Under the pieces are notes generated by a model. That model worked only from the letters and a program-made list of their open reading frames with translations, was not told the origin of the DNA and ran no database searches. This document shows, in pieces, positions 252 to 32,145 of a stretch of DNA of 34,239 bases (the first letter of the stretch is position 1; the number at the start of each line of letters is the position of its first letter). Origin of the DNA: Candidatus Stahliibacteriota bacterium (GTDB lineage: Bacteria; Hydrothermota; Tepidihabitantia; SM23-42); the NCBI GenBank assembly GCA_030606265.1, contig JAUWGT010000005.1, positions 1-34,239 on the forward strand, given 5' to 3'. A program made the position numbers and the translations under genes.

Positions 252-1760
252 TCAACGTGGCTTCATGATTGTGAAGGGTAAGATCATTTCCTCCATCGAT
301 ATACCGCCATGTTGAAAAGTATACTTGAATTCTTTTTCATACTCGGTTGGTTTTGTCGGGTAGATGAAGTAGTAATCCTCCTTGGCAAGAGCAAATCTTA
401 CTGACGGATCAGCACTTGGCAGTGATATCTCGCCAGGATTGTTCAGTAGCCACGCAGTTTTCTTATCTATCCTAAGTGCTGGACCGTATTTATATCGGAG
501 ATTGGGTGATATCGACCGACCGCCATAGATAATGCTGGGACGGCGTACGCGGATGAAACCATGATCAGTAGTGAGGATGACGCGACAGTCCTTTTTTGAC
601 ACATTCTTGAGAAGCTCGAAGATTGGAGATATCGGGAACCAATAACTCAACAAATTAAGCAAAACTCGTTCGTCATCGAGCATCCCCTTCATGTCGCCGC
701 GTCCTGGTATTGAATGAAAGAGAAGATCAAAGAAATTGATCACGGTTATGCAGATATCTGCTTTGTCATTGGTGATTTGTTTAATGTTCCGCTCGATTTC
801 TTGGATGGAGGATAATTTGTAGAATGAGAATTTCAATCGGATATTATGTCTCTTCAGTTGTTCGCTAAATAGTTCTTTCTCGAATCGGTTCTGCCCTTTG
901 GATTCGAAAGACCAGTATTGTGGGAGTTTCTGCACGATCTCAAGAGGCAAGAGTCCAGCAAAAATGGCATTCCTTGAGTACGGTGTTGCGGTTGGCAGTA
1001 TCGAGTAGAAGAACTGTGTATCCATTTCAAAAAAGTCACGCAGATAGGGAGATATTTTGAAATACTGGTCAAGCCTCATTGAATCAAAAATGACAAGATG
1101 GACTGGTCCTTCTTTTAATATGGGCAAGACATAATTCGAAAAGAGGTCTTGAGATAATATCGGTCCTTTGCCCTTTATGAAATCTCGATATTCATGTTCG
1201 ATATATTTCACAAATCCCGCATTGGCTTCATGTTTTCGCTCATCCTGTATTTCTTTGAGGCTTCTGTCACCAAACTCGAGAAGGCGTAAATCCCATGATA
1301 CAAGTGTGCGGTAGTATTCTACCCATTCATTATGGTCAGTAGGTTCAGTATGAGTCCGGAACTGCGTGGCGTACTCTTCGTTCATTTTTTCAGCGATAAT
1401 CAATCTGCGTTTCAGTGTACGGTTCAAAACAGAAAGCAGTTGAGTGAAACTGAACGGTTTCGTGATATAGTCATCAACCCAGCCTCCATATGCTTTCTTC
1501 ATCATATCTTCTTCTTCACTCTTAGTGACCATTACTACTAACTGTTGCGAGTTCTCATTTTTTATTCTTCTTAGCACTTCTAGTCCATCAACACCAGGCA
1601 TAATTTCATCCAAGAAGATAAGGTCAAACAGTTCCTTGCTAGCAAGGGTTACACCATCTTCACCAGAAGTGGCCGTCTTTACTTCATAGCCTTCTTGCTG
1701 GAGAAGATATACAAATGGTTTCAACAGGTCTATTTCATCATCTATCCATAAAATTTTCAT
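252..1760 (-). CDS. PorX-like response regulator with PglZ (alkaline phosphatase superfamily) domain
   Basis: The N-terminal 120 residues are a CheY-type receiver: acidic pocket D7/D8, phospho-acceptor D51 in FLDEIMP, and K101 in ITKPF. After a helical linker, residues about 215-502 form a PglZ/alkaline-phosphatase-fold domain, with metal-site-like motifs VIFDSMRLDQY, PTATPYSRNAIFAG, LTTDHGF and QHGGIS. This architecture is that of PorX, the regulator of the type IX secretion system in Bacteroidetes, whose PglZ domain is reported to be a zinc phosphodiesterase acting on oligonucleotides. The start overlaps the stop of the upstream kinase gene by 4 bases (ATGA), so the pair is coupled. No type IX secretion gene is visible here, so the output is unknown. 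It is the last gene of the operon. Family assignment is strong; an identical role to PorX is inference. Confidence 0.88.
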   Translation of the reverse strand: MKILWIDDEIDLLKPFVYLLQQEGYEVKTATSGEDGVTLASKELFDLIFLDEIMPGVDGLEVLRRIKNENSQQLVVMVTKSEEEDMMKKAYGGWVDDYITKPFSFTQLLSVLNRTLKRRLIIAEKMNEEYATQFRTHTEPTDHNEWVEYYRTLVSWDLRLLEFGDRSLKEIQDERKHEANAGFVKYIEHEYRDFIKGKGPILSQDLFSNYVLPILKEGPVHLVIFDSMRLDQYFKISPYLRDFFEMDTQFFYSILPTATPYSRNAIFAGLLPLEIVQKLPQYWSFESKGQNRFEKELFSEQLKRHNIRLKFSFYKLSSIQEIERNIKQITNDKADICITVINFFDLLFHSIPGRGDMKGMLDDERVLLNLLSYWFPISPIFELLKNVSKKDCRVILTTDHGFIRVRRPSIIYGGRSISPNLRYKYGPALRIDKKTAWLLNNPGEISLPSADPSVRFALAKEDYYFIYPTKPTEYEKEFKYTFQHGGISMEEMILPFTIMKPR

Positions 1761-13469: not shown

Positions 13470-13642
13470 TTAGGAATTGGAAAGAAATGGTATGGGAGTA
13501 TTGGAGAAGCTACAAACACTAAAATCCAAAATACCTAAACCCCGTTAGATGTGTACTATCTAAACGTGGTAAACGCCTAAAGGTAAGTAAATGCCTAGAT
13601 AAACTAAAGAAACTAACGCTATTAACGATTTAAGTTCCATCC

Positions 13643-13723
13643 CGCACTTTATCAAAAGTGCGTGGATCCCTTCCAGTGTGAAACACTCATTTCCATACGA
13701 AGTATCTCTTCTATGCGTAGCAT
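13643..13723. repeat. Array of four mini-hairpins, two with GAA loops
   Basis: Consecutive perfect palindromes: CGCACTTT-ATCA-AAAGTGCG (13643-13662), AGTGT-GAA-ACACT (13675-13687), ATAC-GAA-GTAT (13695-13705) and ATGC-GTA-GCAT (13713-13723). The 7-12 base linkers are mostly pyrimidine-rich on the plus strand, such as CATTTCC and CTCTTCT. Stem sequences differ completely from hairpin to hairpin. Confidence 0.7.
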
Positions 13724-14170: not shown

Positions 14171-14473
14171 ATCTTATTCGAAACTTGGTTCTTGGGTCTT
14201 GGAGCTTGGTTCTTGGAGCTTGGTTCCTGGTAGTCGCTCTACGCTTTACTCCTTACTCTCTACGTTTTTTTGAATCCTAACGGATTGGAAGTGACCCCTC
14301 GACTTGCTCGGGATGGAATTTAAATCGTTAATATCGTTCTTTTCCCGCTCGCAAGAGCCATAACCGTTCACGCCAGTGAACCATAACCGTTGCGAAGCAA
14401 CCAGTCCCGCACGCAGTGCCATTTCCCTCTACTCCCTACTCCTTACGCCCTACGCTCTTGGCTCTGTTAAGTC
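14171..14473. other. Repeat-filled intergenic region before the small membrane protein gene
   Basis: No gene is seen. In order: tandem CTTGGTTCTTGGAG units (14185-14229), TACGC/ACTCCTTACTCTCTACG units, a short ATCCTAACGGAT palindrome, the four-hairpin cassette (14347-14426), and CTACTCCCTACTCCTTACGCCCTACG units running into the promoter. The same module types, in the same orientation relative to the downstream gene, occur upstream of carA. Confidence 0.7.
14347..14426 (+). repeat. Four-hairpin cassette, copy 1
   Basis: Four hairpins with 7-base linkers: GCTC-GCAA-GAGC, GTTCAC-GCCA-GTGAAC, GTTGC-GAA-GCAAC and GCAC-GCA-GTGC. Linkers are CATAACC, CATAACC and CAGTCCC, and the cassette ends with CATTTCC. 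Reverse-complement copies lie at 27404-27476 and 32071-32145. All three copies point the same way relative to the next promoter. Confidence 0.85.
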
Positions 14474-15427: not shown

Positions 15428-16075
15428 CTATATATTTTTTCGCCAAGCGCCGATATTTAGGGCATTAATAAACGCATCTACCATGATTGGATCGAACTGC
15501 GAGCCTGAACACGTCTTGAGTTCTTCTGCGGCTTGCTCTTTTGTTTTTGCTCCTCTATAAGGTCTTTTTGAAGTCATCGCATCATAGGCGTCTGCAACGG
15601 CAATGATCCTGCCGATAAAAGGGATATTCTCTTCACAGAGTCCTTCTGGATAGCCTAAGCCGTCATAACGCTCATGATGAGTTCTCACACCATCTAAAGC
15701 TTGTTCGAATTCAGCGAAGCCGGCAAGTATATAGTATCCCTTTATAGCATGCTGCTGTATTTCAGCCTTTTCTCGTTCGGTCAATGATGTAGGCTTTATG
15801 AGAATTTTTTCATCGATACATATTTTACCGAAGTCATGAAGCAAAGCTGCGGTTTCAAGGATAACCATCTCTTTCTCATTTAACTCGAGTTGCTTCCCGA
15901 TCTGCAATGAGTATCTGCTTACCCTCTGGTTGTGACCATCACGATACGGGACCTGACTATCGACTCTTGCGCTGATTTCTCTCAGCTCTCTTAATGCGTC
16001 TTTTGGTTTATCATGCAGTATTTTAGTTATCTTGCGCAGACAGCTAATGATCTCATCAAGATCAATGTTTTCCAT
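15428..16075 (-). CDS. HD-GYP domain protein, probable cyclic di-GMP phosphodiesterase
   Basis: This 215-residue soluble protein is mostly a single HD-GYP domain with about 45 preceding helical residues. Metal ligands and signature are intact: H48 in GHNQRVSRYS, H80-D81 in LLHDFGK, and HHERYDGLGYP at 133-143, with IIAVADAYDAMTSKRPYR after it. It should hydrolyse cyclic di-GMP, opposing the GGDEF protein encoded at 2883-4757. It has no receiver domain of its own; the neighbouring receiver/coiled-coil protein might supply one. The start at 16075 has GAGGGGAG upstream. Its promoter lies about 135 bases upstream, giving a long leader. Confidence 0.92.
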   Translation of the reverse strand: MENIDLDEIISCLRKITKILHDKPKDALRELREISARVDSQVPYRDGHNQRVSRYSLQIGKQLELNEKEMVILETAALLHDFGKICIDEKILIKPTSLTEREKAEIQQHAIKGYYILAGFAEFEQALDGVRTHHERYDGLGYPEGLCEENIPFIGRIIAVADAYDAMTSKRPYRGAKTKEQAAEELKTCSGSQFDPIMVDAFINALNIGAWRKNI

Positions 16076-16203
16076 AAAGCACTCCCCTCATTATGGAGTC
16101 TTCGGTTTTTAGTACTTCCGCCCTTATGCAGAAATAATCCTCAGATCTAATATTGCAAAGATGAACTTAAAAGTTAGATTTTATTGCTTTAATGTATAGC
16201 TTC
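16076..16203 (-). other. Long leader of the HD-GYP mRNA
   Basis: About 128 bases lie between the predicted transcription start and the ATG. I looked for a GEMM-type cyclic di-GMP riboswitch and saw none of its conserved core. Inverted pieces such as ATCTAACTTTTAAGTT are present but no convincing aptamer. It may simply be a leader or hold an unrecognised structure. Confidence 0.4.
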
Positions 16204-16209
16204 TAATTT

Positions 16210-16237
16210 ATTATATACCGAAAGAAGTTGATGTCAA
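16210..16237 (-). promoter_or_regulatory. Promoter of the HD-GYP gene
   Basis: TTGACA (16237-16232), 16-base spacer, TATAAT (16215-16210), both perfect. It faces away from the che operon promoter, so the region between them is divergent. Confidence 0.8.
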
Positions 16238-16600
16238 GTAAGTATGTTTGAATCCCAAGGGGATTGGAAGATACAAACACCTAAAATCCAAAATACCTAA
16301 ACGCCTAAATAAACCAGAGAAACGAATGAAAGGAATAAATAGGAGTAGGGCGTTTACGCCCGTCCAATACGAGCCTGAAGGCTCTACTCCAAAGATACGA
16401 CGTTAGATTTTATATGAAGAACATCATGGATGAAACGTCTTTTAGTTATTGGTAAAGCAGTTATTGGGCAAAACAGTAATTAAGTAATTAAGTTATTAAG
16501 TAATTGAACAAAACAGTTATTAAGTTATTAAATAATTAGGTAATTGAGGGAATTGTAGTTGCCTGATCCTTCAATTACATTCAGGACATGTTTATCAGGC
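16238..16600. other. Repeat-filled divergent intergenic region
   Basis: No gene. From the left: hairpin AATCCC-AAG-GGGATT (16251-16265); the segment CTAAAATCCAAAATACCTAAACGCC shared with the argF upstream region; a three-way-junction palindrome (16342-16390); and AT-rich tandem variants of AAGTTATT/AAGTAATT (about 16471-16550). Last is GTAGTT followed by arm GCCTGAT (16561-16567), which pairs with ATCAGGC (16594-16600). The last unit resembles the junction elements at 13764 and 31970 with a different insert. Confidence 0.65.
16342..16390. repeat. Three-way-junction palindrome
   Basis: Outer stem GGAGTA/TACTCC encloses two perfect hairpins, GGGCG-TTTA-CGCCC and GAGCC-TGAA-GGCTC, joined by GTCCAATAC. 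It has the same design as the 13764 and 31970 elements but different sequence. Confidence 0.7.
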
Positions 16601-16790
16601 TGATTCAGGAGCAAAGCGACATGTCTACAATGAAATGTGTCTTCAATCCGCGGTTGGCGGATGTGTCTCCAGAGAATCGTGTCTACAGCCGAAGGTGCAT
16701 CTTCAGGAGCGAAGCGACATGTCCTCAGGCAAAGCTATATTGCCGTGACTTCATCCACCAGAGGTGGAATATCTTCAGCGCAGCGTGTTT
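16601..16790 (+). repeat. Array of unlike mini-hairpins with 9-base RTGTCTWCA linkers
   Basis: Eight linkers of consensus RTGTCTWCA (16621-29, 16637-45, 16663-71, 16679-87, 16697-705, 16719-27, 16745-53, 16769-77) separate inserts of 7-17 bases. The inserts are mostly self-complementary: AT-GAA-AT, ATCCGC-GGTTG-GCGGAT, GA-GAA-TC, GCC-GAA-GGT, GC-GAA-GC within GGAGCGAAGCGAC, GGCAA-AGCTATA-TTGCC, TCCACC-AGA-GGTGGA, and GC-GCA-GC. The array ends about 10 bases before the -35 of the che operon. Confidence 0.8.
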
Positions 16791-16796
16791 CTTGTC

Positions 16797-16824
16797 TTGA
16801 CATTTAAGTATAATTTTATACAAT
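16797..16824 (+). promoter_or_regulatory. Promoter of the chemosensory operon
   Basis: TTGACA (16797-16802), 16-base spacer, TACAAT (16819-16824). Transcription should start at about 16831, within a base or two of the ATG at 16833, so the first gene is probably read from a leaderless message. Confidence 0.85.
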
Positions 16825-16832
16825 ATTGTTGT

Positions 16833-19800
16833 ATGAATCGAAATCTAAAGGATATTGTAATTGACCGAGTTAAAGCGCCGTTGGAAGAATACTCTACTTC
16901 CTTCGGGGATCTTTTGGAAACCAGTCAGGAAATCGAAAACCGACTTGTCAAAGACACTGAGCTTCTTTCTGAGATAGGGAAGAAGTTCGACATTCTATCT
17001 GCGGCAGTTGAGCTCGAATTTGAAGGGATATCAGTTTTCGACCAGGAAATAAAGAAAACCAAGGAGATTCTTGAAAAGAGTGTTATTAAGGTCAATGAAT
17101 CTTTGACCGTATCAAATCGAATTTCAGAGGACTTGGATGTTATCTCAAAGTCCTTTAATAAAATCCAGGCCGATGCCTTACAGCTTGATGACATTGTGAA
17201 AAACATCGCTGTGGTGTCGGATTCCATAGAAGTAGCTTCGCGTAATGCGGGCATAACTGCTTTTCATGCTGGTGAACAGGGGAGAGGTTTCGAAGTGATC
17301 TCCCGGGAAATGACCTTACTGGTTAAAAGCGTGCAGGATCCAACAAAGCTTGTCCCCGATATTTCTGAAGAAGTAGTCAAAGGAACTGTAGATCTTGGTC
17401 ATGACTTACAGAGAATAGGGAGTATAATACATGATCTAAAAGAGATAAACGAACGGTTTTCCGATATCACTAATGAACTTCTTGGATTGATCCCGAATAT
17501 TGAAACCGGTATCAAGAGCCTTGGCGCGAGTGTTATTTCACAGAAGGAATTGCACCAGCTTTTGTTGACTGAGAATGAGCGTTCATCGCAATGGCTAAGT
17601 AACATTTATGATACAGCCCGTTCTTCAGCAATTCTGGAACAATATTTAGAAGCTATGTTTCGTAGGGTTAGTAATATTCGCGAAAGCCTTATGAGTGTCG
17701 AAGACGACACATCTTTTGCATGGATGTTCAATACCTTAAAGGTTGCCTTGACCGATGCTTCAAAGAGCTATGCCAAGGGTATGAATGAGCTGTCTATTAA
17801 AGAAATCGGTCGAGGAGGTGGTATACAGTCGTCAGAACGTTCGATCCTTCAACTCGTCAGTGAAGCCGGTCAACTCTCTGGAGTTATTAGCAAGATTGCT
17901 ATAGAGATCAAGAATTGGTTGAAGACAAATGGTGTAGCTTGTGAAGTTCTCACCAACGGGATTGCTTTTTATCAGGATATCCTAAACATCCTTTCGGTAT
18001 TGAATGAGAAACTCCACTCGATACGAATGAGAGCAGAGAAAATAGAAAACCCACTTTTTGATCTAAAGAAAATCACCGAGCGTTCACGGATACTTGGTCT
18101 GTACGCGAGCATTGAAAGTGCAAGGGGCGGTCAGTATGCGCAGTCACTTGGCGTGGTGACCAAGGAGATAAAAGATCTATCAGACAAGACAACTTCATTT
18201 GTTACTGATATTGGTGAAGTCGCTTTTGGTATGACTGAGAGTTTTGACGAACTGTCAACATTCCTGATCAGGAGTATGAGTGATGTTGAACAGGGCGTTG
18301 GATCATTGAAAGCTGCGGTAGATATCCTTGAAGAGAACAGAGGATTGTTGCAGAGCCTTGATAATCTCGGACAGGAAATGATTGGTTCAACCGATAAGAT
18401 AAAAACACAATGTAATGATCTGAGTATTAACATAAGAGAACTCAATCTTGACTATGAAAATATAGAGAATGCTTTTGAAGAGTATTCAAAGACAATCAAT
18501 GCCTGCGGTAAGACAGCTGAACACTTGTTGAAAAGTGTTAGTTCCTATGACAAAGAATTTGCGGTCTTAACCCGTAAACACAAGACTATTGTTTATCAGC
18601 AGTCAGTGGAACCGATACTACTTGATCCAGCCAATAAAACTGATGCCCGTAGTCATGAAGTGCTTCAACAGATTTTCATTGGTCTATTGACTTTTGATTC
18701 AGGTAATCACATGGTTCCGGGTATGGTTGACAGATTTTCAGTATCTAAGGATGGGTTGATCTGGGACTTCAAGATAAAACGTGGTATTAGATTTCATAAT
18801 GGTGATATGATCACTGCACAAGATATCGCCAATTCTATATCACGAGTGAAAGCCGGTCCAAATCTTAGCTTCATAGATTATGTCGATGATGTGGCGATTT
18901 TAGATGATTTTGATATTAGATTCAGTCTTAAGTTTCCTTATCTTCCTTTTCTAGCCAATCTTGCTTGTGGTACGTGTGATATTACGCACCGGGATCATTC
19001 TGTAGAACACCCGATTGGTGCTGGTCCCTATAAGTTTGTACATTGGGAAAAGGAAAAAGAGATCATCCTTGATGTCTTTAAGGATTTTTTTGACGGTCGA
19101 CCACCCATTGATAGAGTTATCATTAAGTTCATGCAGGATAGCGAAGAAGCGGTACAGCGTTTCAGAAAAGGTGAAATATCAATAATGGCGGTAACCCCAG
19201 AGATAGCTAAGCGATTTTCACCCGATGAGCTCATTTCCGGACCAGGTTTGTCTACTCAATATGTTGGTATTAATGTTTCACTCGATACTCCCTTCAAAAA
19301 CAGAAAGGTCCGTCAGGCGATGAACTACGCCATTGATAATGAGCATTTCAGTAATGTCGCAATGGAGGGGCAAGCCGTACCAGCTCGCGGTGTTTTTCCA
19401 CCCGGTATGTATGTTTATAATAATGACTTGTTGGGTTACGGATGTGATTTGGATAAGGCGAAACAACTTATGCGTGATGCAGGGTATGGCAGTGGTTTTG
19501 ATAGTGTGTATCCTTTTGATATCAGGGAGAGCGAAGCCGCCATTAAAAGAGCTGAGTATGTGATAAAAAGTCTTGAAAAAATCGGTGTAAAGCTTATACT
19601 TAATCCACTATCATGGAATGATTTCTTAGAACGGGGTTATCGTGGTGATAGTATTTTGTGTATGAAGAGCTGGGTTTCGGATAATGGTGACCCGGATAAT
19701 TTCCTTTATCCGTTGTTCCACTCCAAGAGTTTTGGACGTGCTGGTAATACTTCGTTCTACAGTAATCATGAGGTGGATACGATGATTGAACATGCAAGAT

Positions 19801-19982
19801 CTGAACGGAGCAGCAATAAGCGTCAACAGGTATACCGTGATATCGAGAATATGATAGTGAATGATGCGCCGTGGATATTTCTTTCTCATTCGGTTGATTC
19901 CTACGCGGTCAGTACGGATATCGGTGGTTTCAAAGTAGACCCATTTGGAATTATTAGGTTCCGCTATTTATGGACTAGATGA
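16833..19982 (+). CDS. Soluble chemoreceptor with two MCP-like signalling hairpins fused to an SBP_bac_5 peptide-binding domain
   Basis: The protein is 1049 residues from the ATG at 16833; the ORF-track start at 16764 lies upstream of the promoter. There is no signal peptide or TM helix. Residues 1-580 are long coiled-coil helices with two regions like the MCP hairpin tip. The first, about 136-167, contains ASRNAGITAFHAGEQGRGFE. The second, about 410-455, contains ILGLYASIESARGGQYAQSL. Residues about 585-1049 are a family 5 extracellular solute-binding domain (SEPILLDPAN-like opening, GLIWDFKIKRGIRFHNGD, GAGPYKFVHWE, NRKVRQAMNYAID), normally a secreted part of peptide/nickel ABC transporters. 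Here it is cytosolic and probably acts as ligand sensor feeding the adjacent CheW-CheA. No SD precedes the start. The stop overlaps cheW by 4 bases. Domain calls are strong; the sensing role is inference. Confidence 0.88.
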   Translation: MNRNLKDIVIDRVKAPLEEYSTSFGDLLETSQEIENRLVKDTELLSEIGKKFDILSAAVELEFEGISVFDQEIKKTKEILEKSVIKVNESLTVSNRISEDLDVISKSFNKIQADALQLDDIVKNIAVVSDSIEVASRNAGITAFHAGEQGRGFEVISREMTLLVKSVQDPTKLVPDISEEVVKGTVDLGHDLQRIGSIIHDLKEINERFSDITNELLGLIPNIETGIKSLGASVISQKELHQLLLTENERSSQWLSNIYDTARSSAILEQYLEAMFRRVSNIRESLMSVEDDTSFAWMFNTLKVALTDASKSYAKGMNELSIKEIGRGGGIQSSERSILQLVSEAGQLSGVISKIAIEIKNWLKTNGVACEVLTNGIAFYQDILNILSVLNEKLHSIRMRAEKIENPLFDLKKITERSRILGLYASIESARGGQYAQSLGVVTKEIKDLSDKTTSFVTDIGEVAFGMTESFDELSTFLIRSMSDVEQGVGSLKAAVDILEENRGLLQSLDNLGQEMIGSTDKIKTQCNDLSINIRELNLDYENIENAFEEYSKTINACGKTAEHLLKSVSSYDKEFAVLTRKHKTIVYQQSVEPILLDPANKTDARSHEVLQQIFIGLLTFDSGNHMVPGMVDRFSVSKDGLIWDFKIKRGIRFHNGDMITAQDIANSISRVKAGPNLSFIDYVDDVAILDDFDIRFSLKFPYLPFLANLACGTCDITHRDHSVEHPIGAGPYKFVHWEKEKEIILDVFKDFFDGRPPIDRVIIKFMQDSEEAVQRFRKGEISIMAVTPEIAKRFSPDELISGPGLSTQYVGINVSLDTPFKNRKVRQAMNYAIDNEHFSNVAMEGQAVPARGVFPPGMYVYNNDLLGYGCDLDKAKQLMRDAGYGSGFDSVYPFDIRESEAAIKRAEYVIKSLEKIGVKLILNPLSWNDFLERGYRGDSILCMKSWVSDNGDPDNFLYPLFHSKSFGRAGNTSFYSNHEVDTMIEHARSERSSNKRQQVYRDIENMIVNDAPWIFLSHSVDSYAVSTDIGGFKVDPFGIIRFRYLWTR

Positions 19983-32016: not shown

Positions 32017-32070
32017 AATAGCGTAGAGAGCAAAGCCTAAGGCGTAAGGCGTAGAGAGTAGGGGGAAATG

Positions 32071-32145
32071 GCACTGCGCGTGCGGGATTGGTTGCTTCGC
32101 AACGGTTATGGTTCACTAGCGTGAACGGTTATGGCTCTTGCGAGC
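32071..32145 (-). repeat. Four-hairpin cassette, copy 3
   Basis: Plus-strand order: GCAC-TGCGC-GTGC, linker GGGATTG, GTTGC-TTC-GCAAC, linker GGTTATG, GTTCAC-TAGC-GTGAAC, linker GGTTATG, GCTC-TTGC-GAGC. Stems match copy 1 exactly while loops differ, as expected if the paired stems are conserved. Confidence 0.85.

Follow-up and report, generated by a model that had tools for sequence, protein, structure and literature searches.

Intergenic strings of unlike mini-hairpins joined by a constant nine-base linker in one family of uncultured bacteria

A 34,239-nucleotide stretch of DNA from a Candidatus Stahliibacteriota bacterium (contig JAUWGT010000005.1), called the window below, holds a string of small, mostly palindromic inserts of unlike sequence that are separated by near-identical nine-base linkers. 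The locus raises the question of what such a string is, whether it occurs elsewhere, and whether its hairpins matter as DNA or as RNA.

Layout and surroundings of the array

As read from the sequence, the array occupied positions 16621-16793 (+) and consisted of eight linkers and seven inserts, followed by one further hairpin/linker pair. The linker starts (16621, 16637, 16663, 16679, 16697, 16719, 16745 and 16769) and the insert sizes (7, 17, 7, 9, 13, 17 and 15 bases) given in the preliminary description were reproduced exactly. The linker had been written there as RTGTCTWCA; a constant 9-mer was indeed present, but its seventh base was not restricted to W, as any base occurs there, and the form RTGTCTNCA is therefore used here. 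It was matched exactly by four of the eight linkers, those departing from it being GCATCTTCA, ATGTCCTCA, GTGACTTCA and ATATCTTCA.

The array was preceded by a degenerate unit, GCTGATTCA plus GGAGCAAAGCGAC (16599-16620, +), with the core GC-AAA-GC, and the lead-in of this unit recurred at other array starts as TGATTCAGGAGC[GA]AAGCGACATGTC. A left flank, GCAGATTTCAGTGTATCGAACAAATGTGAGATGYCTYCAG, was common to array starts at different loci (L092, L121, L123, L200 and L210). All parts of the array were read on the forward strand. Linker 1, ATGTCTACA (16621-16629), fitted RTGTCTNCA and was followed by the recurrent hairpin module ATGAAAT (AT-GAA-AT, 16630-16636), linker 2, GTGTCTTCA (16637-16645), and a further recurrent module, ATCCGCGGTTGGCGGAT, with a 6 bp stem (16646-16662). 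Linker 3, GTGTCTCCA (16663-16671), preceded the module GAGAATC (GA-GAA-TC, 16672-16678), and linker 4, GTGTCTACA (16679-16687), the module GCCGAAGGT (16688-16696), whose counterpart in the orthologous array of the related genome G001 was GCCGAAGGC. The degenerate linker 5, GCATCTTCA (16697-16705), led to the 13-base module GGAGCGAAGCGAC (16706-16718), and linker 6, ATGTCCTCA (16719-16727), to the module GGCAAAGCTATATTGCC with a 5 bp stem (16728-16744), which was common to G001 and another contig (G000:C34). Linker 7, GTGACTTCA (16745-16753), the module TCCACCAGAGGTGGA with a 6 bp stem (16754-16768), linker 8, ATATCTTCA (16769-16777), and the last module, GCGCAGC (GC-GCA-GC, 16778-16784), completed the string, which ended in the degenerate linker GTGTTTCTT (16785-16793); similar ends elsewhere read GTGTTTCC or GTGTCTCC.

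The inserts had been called mostly palindromic, which was true of six of the seven: perfect stems of 2, 6, 2, 5 and 6 bp were found, together with GCCGAAGGT, whose single G.T pair was G-C in the orthologous G001 array. In the 13-base insert the palindrome was confined to the core GC GAA GC.

The array was located between an HD-domain gene (15428-16075, -) and a gene for a protein with an MCP signalling domain and an SBP_bac_5 domain (from 16833, +). It immediately preceded the promoter belonging to the latter (TTGACA ... TACAAT, 16797-16824, +) and lay 545 bases upstream of the former. A kinship of the linker with the promoter sequence TGTCTTGACA had been suggested, yet relatives kept the promoter (CTTGACATTT...TACAAT) in front of this gene whether they had an array there or not. 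Hence, the promoter marks the limit against which the array lies and does not belong to it.

Two of the encoded proteins in the window were domain fusions. The MCP signalling domain was fused to the family 5 solute-binding domain (SBP_bac_5) in a protein of 1049 aa (16833-19982, +), relatives of which, at 45-95% identity, were present in much of the family. At 252-1760 (-) a response-regulator receiver domain was fused to a PglZ domain, a pair known from PorX-type regulators.

Distribution, stems and loops

When the pattern RTGTCTNCA-NNGNANN-RTGTCTNCA was searched with shared ends and at most two mismatches, 59 matches were recorded in the genome of origin and none for the reversed pattern. 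With one mismatch allowed, 14 of the 23 genomes in one family had it, and none of the 124 others in the phylum did. Exact matches in 85,462 species genomes fell in 22 stretches, of which 21 belonged to Stahlbacteria/WOR-3, the group of the window itself, and a single match elsewhere (Phyllobacterium) is within what chance would be expected to give. Of the 119 inserts of the genome of origin, 79% had a perfect outer stem of 2 bp or more, compared with 7.5% after shuffling (17% in the highest of 500 shuffles). Chance origin was ruled out by the shuffles, the reversed pattern and the phylum survey; the linker-spaced palindromes, for which a search of this and related genomes had been proposed, neither resembled shuffled sequence nor were absent from relatives. 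No exact match was found in 2.9 million viral contigs, and a phage origin was rejected on this basis.

The array had also been said to fit no known repeat family, and this largely stood. Against Rfam 15 only two tRNAs exceeded the gathering threshold in the window, with nothing credible at 16000-17000, the REP/BIME and RAYT tests failed on the points tested (see below), and no description of such linker-hairpin repeats was found in open-licence papers. The array is one of dozens of intergenic strings of unlike tiny hairpins in one family of uncultured bacteria. The linker-hairpin system is real and restricted to this family, and it appears to be an undescribed type of small dispersed DNA repeat.

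Multi-unit arrays were mostly intergenic, as judged by simple ORF calling, by which a few arrays landed in small spurious frames, and the linkers within one array were all on one strand. The arrays belong to a broader intergenic mosaic: in the window, 15-mers common to other contigs of the same genome covered 60-68% of its three long intergenic regions, compared with 2% of coding sequence.

The proposed check of stem covariation gave a strong result at both pairs of the seven-base inserts, in which the stem was kept while its sequence changed. Among 200 such inserts from 15 genomes, Watson-Crick pairing was recorded for 93% at positions 1-7 and 92% at positions 2-6, where independence would give 50% and 39%. 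The mutual information was 0.67 and 1.12 bits, respectively, and at most 0.15 bits for the other position pairs tested. Common two-base stems were GC-GC, AC-GT, AT-AT, GA-TC and GT-AC. Insert lengths ranged from 7 to 33, and 200 of the 408 inserts had seven bases, so that the 2-bp module was the commonest.

The GAA loops noticed earlier proved to belong to a wider rule of GNA and GNNA loops. Of the 173 paired 7-mers, 152 had a GNA loop, and each of the four bases was seen at N; many of these 7-mers were, however, retrieved with patterns fixing G.A, and related copies cannot count as independent. No such selection applied to the second linker family described below, to the 8- and 9-base modules or to the longer ones. 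The 8-base modules were mostly GC-GNNA-GC. Among longer inserts, 32 of the 63 loops of three bases and 25 of the 39 loops of four bases were G..A, compared with two and no cases of A..G. An excess of G..A over A..G was likewise seen in intergenic hairpins whose stems had 6 bp or more, for loops of three and four bases, but not of five. At least half of the GNNA loops in linker-A modules had a purine as their third base. Part of the prevalence of G..A loops is due to shared ancestry in a small number of founder modules. Mispairs in the stems were equally rare in both forms (six G-T and five A-C at pair 1), and linker bases 7 and 1 were weakly associated with the neighbouring inserts, somewhat more with the following one.

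A second linker family, CCATAACC-like, joined hairpins nearly all of which had G..A loops, and two copies were present in the window. In the string at 14348-14426 (+), the linkers CCATAACC, CATAACC, CAGTCCC and CATTTCC accompanied the hairpins CTC-GCAA-GAG, GTTCAC-GCCA-GTGAAC, GTTGC-GAA-GCAAC and GCAC-GCA-GTGC; that at 32064-32144 (-) carried the variant GTTCAC-GCTA-GTGAAC. Across strings, the linkers CCATAACC, CATAACC, CCATTACC, CTTTACC and CATTTCC were observed, with hairpins including GTTCAC-GNNA-GTGAAC, GTCC-GAA-GGAC, GTGCT-GAA-AGCAC and GCAC-GCA-GTGC. G..A loops were found in 13 of 13 hairpins by one regex scan and in 13 of 14 by a broader scan. The module order was more fixed than in the first family, and the presence or absence of modules varied too.

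Palindromes joined by GGAAG/CTTCC-like stretches (AATCC-TAAC-GGATT GGAAG ...) were also seen at 13640-13720 and 14275-14320 of the window and at the locus L169. Flank counts and visual inspection had suggested a third linker, of the CTTCC type, but a regular-expression scan did not confirm it.

Module turnover and the origin of the arrays

At orthologous sites in G001 (where the same gene was 95% identical), G002 and G003, either an array with other modules or no array was found. At site C186 the G001 array had one additional 16-base unit (ATGAAAT plus linker), and at site C55 both array borders were common to three species while the modules differed. Paired stem changes were seen at C55 (GTTCGTC..GACGAAC/GTTTGTC..GACAAAC and ACGAAGT/GCGAAGC) and at C153 (GTGAAAC/ATGAAAT), some of which may be module swaps instead of point changes; single-sided differences (GCGAAAC/GTGAAAC and GCCGAAGGT/GCCGAAGGC) were also observed. 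Inserts recurred, the arrays of the genome of origin comprising 63 modules, 38 of them distinct. Identical neighbours accounted for 1 of 131 adjacent pairs, compared with about five expected from shuffling modules within genomes, no single genome being significant. Since neighbouring modules were almost never identical, plain tandem duplication is unlikely, and tandem slippage was not supported for want of an excess of identical neighbours. For comparison with MITEs, which have terminal inverted repeats and a target duplication, no clean empty site was found at the compared loci, the flanking intergenic DNA being hypervariable.

At one locus (L202, about 1425-1485; G001:C165, compared with L109, G000:C186), a stretch of ~55 bases (CTTGTCGTAGATATC...GTTAAACGAAGTTGTACGGG) lay inside a hairpin module. 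The array was otherwise conserved. Parts of the stretch were seen again at further loci, which points to another small element.

The explanation that we favour, at roughly even odds of being correct, is a family-specific repeat whose hairpins would act as folded single-stranded DNA and which would be non-autonomous and selfish or near-neutral. Its unit is the nine-base linker RTGWCTNCA plus a small hairpin of free sequence with a kept stem and, in short modules, a G-N-A or G-N-N-A loop. Units and multi-unit cassettes would be copied into intergenic sites with the linker strand constant within an array, and are gained, lost or swapped singly while the array position stays. The hairpins most likely matter as single strands exposed during replication, repair or recombination, the constant linker would serve as a stretch for recognising or joining units, and a host function is probably absent, the arrays being filler bounded by genes and promoters. 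No copying enzyme for the arrays was found among the 20 Y1 genes examined in four genomes, and the mechanism is thus one that we infer. A bolder version, put forward tentatively and judged unlikely, is a new repeat class in which inheritance and copying act on a shape, namely a mini-hairpin of single-stranded DNA closed by a GNA or GNNA loop, and leave its sequence free; a putative enzyme would recognise the folded unit and join it via the linker, with at least two linker families existing in parallel.

DNA hairpins that combine a GNA or GNNA loop with two or more G-C pairs are extraordinarily stable, GCGAAGC having a Tm of 78 C (PMC4686876), and the G-N(N)-A loops of the arrays favour, without proving, folding as single-stranded DNA. 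The two G-C pairs were present in GC-GC stems (59 of 200) and in 9-base modules and lacking in AC-GT, AT-AT, GA-TC and GT-AC; many modules (ATGAAAT, GAGAATC) had stems with A-T pairs, beyond the published rule. Standard nearest-neighbour models, for DNA or RNA, predicted no stable fold for 2-bp modules with three-base loops, and the whole array folded no better than shuffles (z = 0.48 for the global RNA fold). Taken together, the loop type, the array position upstream of a promoter, the equally rare mispairs and the global folds weakly to moderately favour DNA over RNA.

The most serious rival, and a real possibility, is a neutral by-product: fold-back synthesis, template switching and microhomology-mediated recombination would make or correct small palindromes, and the linker would be mere microhomology, with neither an element nor a function involved. 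The intergenic regions, as hypervariable mosaics of dispersed words with the high 15-mer sharing given above, are consistent with it, as is the large replacement of intergenic content between species with flanking genes ~93% identical, and GNA loops would presumably be good self-priming turns in DNA. However, the two-bp stems covary despite being, to our knowledge, too short for known template-switch correction, and the linker is constant at nine bases and on one strand across genera while confined to one family. Double-stranded binding-site arrays for a nucleoid or regulatory host protein, with dyad half-sites between the linkers, would account for the constant linker, for the 16-base repeat produced by short modules and for the several arrays that adjoin -35 boxes. 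Such a protein is very hard to reconcile with at least five common unlike dyads, insert lengths of 7 to 33, G..A loops that are asymmetric, unlike a dyad centre, and the absence of arrays at the same promoter in relatives, and we consider it highly improbable.

It was also considered unlikely that the arrays are REP/BIME-like elements moved by a Y1 (HUH) transposase of the REP-associated or IS200/IS605 type that reads a hairpin plus a guide sequence. Intergenic location, a hairpin with a constant foot, one-strandedness, high copy number and 9-13 Y1_Tnp matches per genome in the genus agree with such movement, but RTGTCTNCA arrays flanked none of the 20 Y1 genes examined in the four genomes. 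Ends of the GGGGTCAAATCT type enclosed most of these genes, and repeats of another, true REP-like family enclosed two. Further, G012 had no Y1_Tnp match and 12 array matches, G008 one weak match and 13 array matches, and G005, G013 and G019 4-5 Y1_Tnp matches and no array match; the hairpin foot carries no GTAG/CGTC tag, and the stems are of 2 bp and unlike in sequence. As Y1 presence does not follow the arrays and none of the genes was flanked by them, RAYT-linked REP elements were not supported. Transcribed hairpin strings acting as leader, terminator or small RNA seem quite improbable: the loops are partly GNRA-compatible, in that RNA GNRA loops may fit the linker-A modules, and many arrays have a gene end or promoter no more than 100 bases away, but the array of the window is upstream of the promoter of one gene and far upstream of the other, the orientation of arrays to flanking genes was about balanced (16 ++, 18 --, 13 +- and 8 -+), and G-T mispairs did not exceed A-C. 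A structured RNA found no support in Rfam or in whole-array folding.

Genuine REP-like repeats (TGTGGGAGCGGGCTTCTGCCCGCGATAATT) flanked the Y1 genes at L180 (G000:C128) and L188 (G002:C74). At L183, L184, L187, L191 and L193-L199 the Y1 genes lay between inverted ends, GGGGTCAAATCT...AGATTTGACCCC, an arrangement like that of transposase genes with terminal inverted repeats.

Comparison with known systems

The arrays are similar in their ecology to REP/BIME elements and REPINs with RAYTs: they are small intergenic palindromes in many copies, with a constant foot beside the hairpins, clusters with short linking motifs and presumed recognition as single-stranded DNA. They differ in the constant nine-base linker, the unlike hairpins in direct orientation, the stems down to 2 bp and the GNA/GNNA loops (PMC2817692, PMC3733652, PMC6006769). 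The hairpin foot of REPs of the GTAG or CGTC class is tagged by these bases (PMC3733652), whereas the array feet read ...TCTNCA and RTGWCT...; REP stems have 5-13 bp and the commonest array module 2 bp. In BIMEs the palindromic units alternate in orientation (PMC2817692, PMC3733652, PMC6006769), whereas the linkers within an array keep one strand. A REPtron has a cognate tyrosine transposase gene flanked by its repeat, an arrangement seen at 0 of the 20 Y1_Tnp genes. On these tested points the arrays are not REP/BIME members.

In chemical terms, the modules GCGAAGC, GCGTAGC, GCGCAGC and GCGGAGC belong to the class of the stable DNA mini-hairpins d(GCGNAGC) and d(GCGNNAGC), as do the modules GCGTTAGC, GCGTAAGC, GCGCCAGC and GCGTCAGC (PMC4686876). 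The G-N-A or G-N-N-A loop of that class is the one found in the paired 7-mers and four-base loops counted above. However, the class is a chemical motif and not a repeat family, and many array modules have A-T pairs. The arrays may serve as a test bed for a genomic role of such mini-hairpins, known so far from chemistry.

The string had been described as the inverse of a CRISPR, with a constant linker and variable self-complementary inserts, and this picture held genome-wide and family-wide. Constant and variable parts alternate in both, and the array position stays while the content changes. A CRISPR has identical repeats of 20-50 bp and unlike, non-repeated spacers; in contrast, the constant part here spans nine bases, and the variable part is a palindrome taken from a set of recurring modules. 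Integron attC sites are likewise folded single strands recognised more by shape than by sequence, but the array modules are far shorter and no gene cassettes were noticed. The neisserial NIME/dRS3 and BOX elements are also modular intergenic mosaics; in these the constant dRS3 spacer is a palindrome, whereas here it is the variable part.

The arrays help to explain the changeable intergenic regions of these uncultured bacteria. Sequence is preserved in the small palindromic repeats known so far, whereas the stems of these arrays drift in sequence but retain their pairing and type of loop, even between orthologous arrays. The arrays can be regarded as a natural record of DNA secondary structure being under selection or serving in copying.
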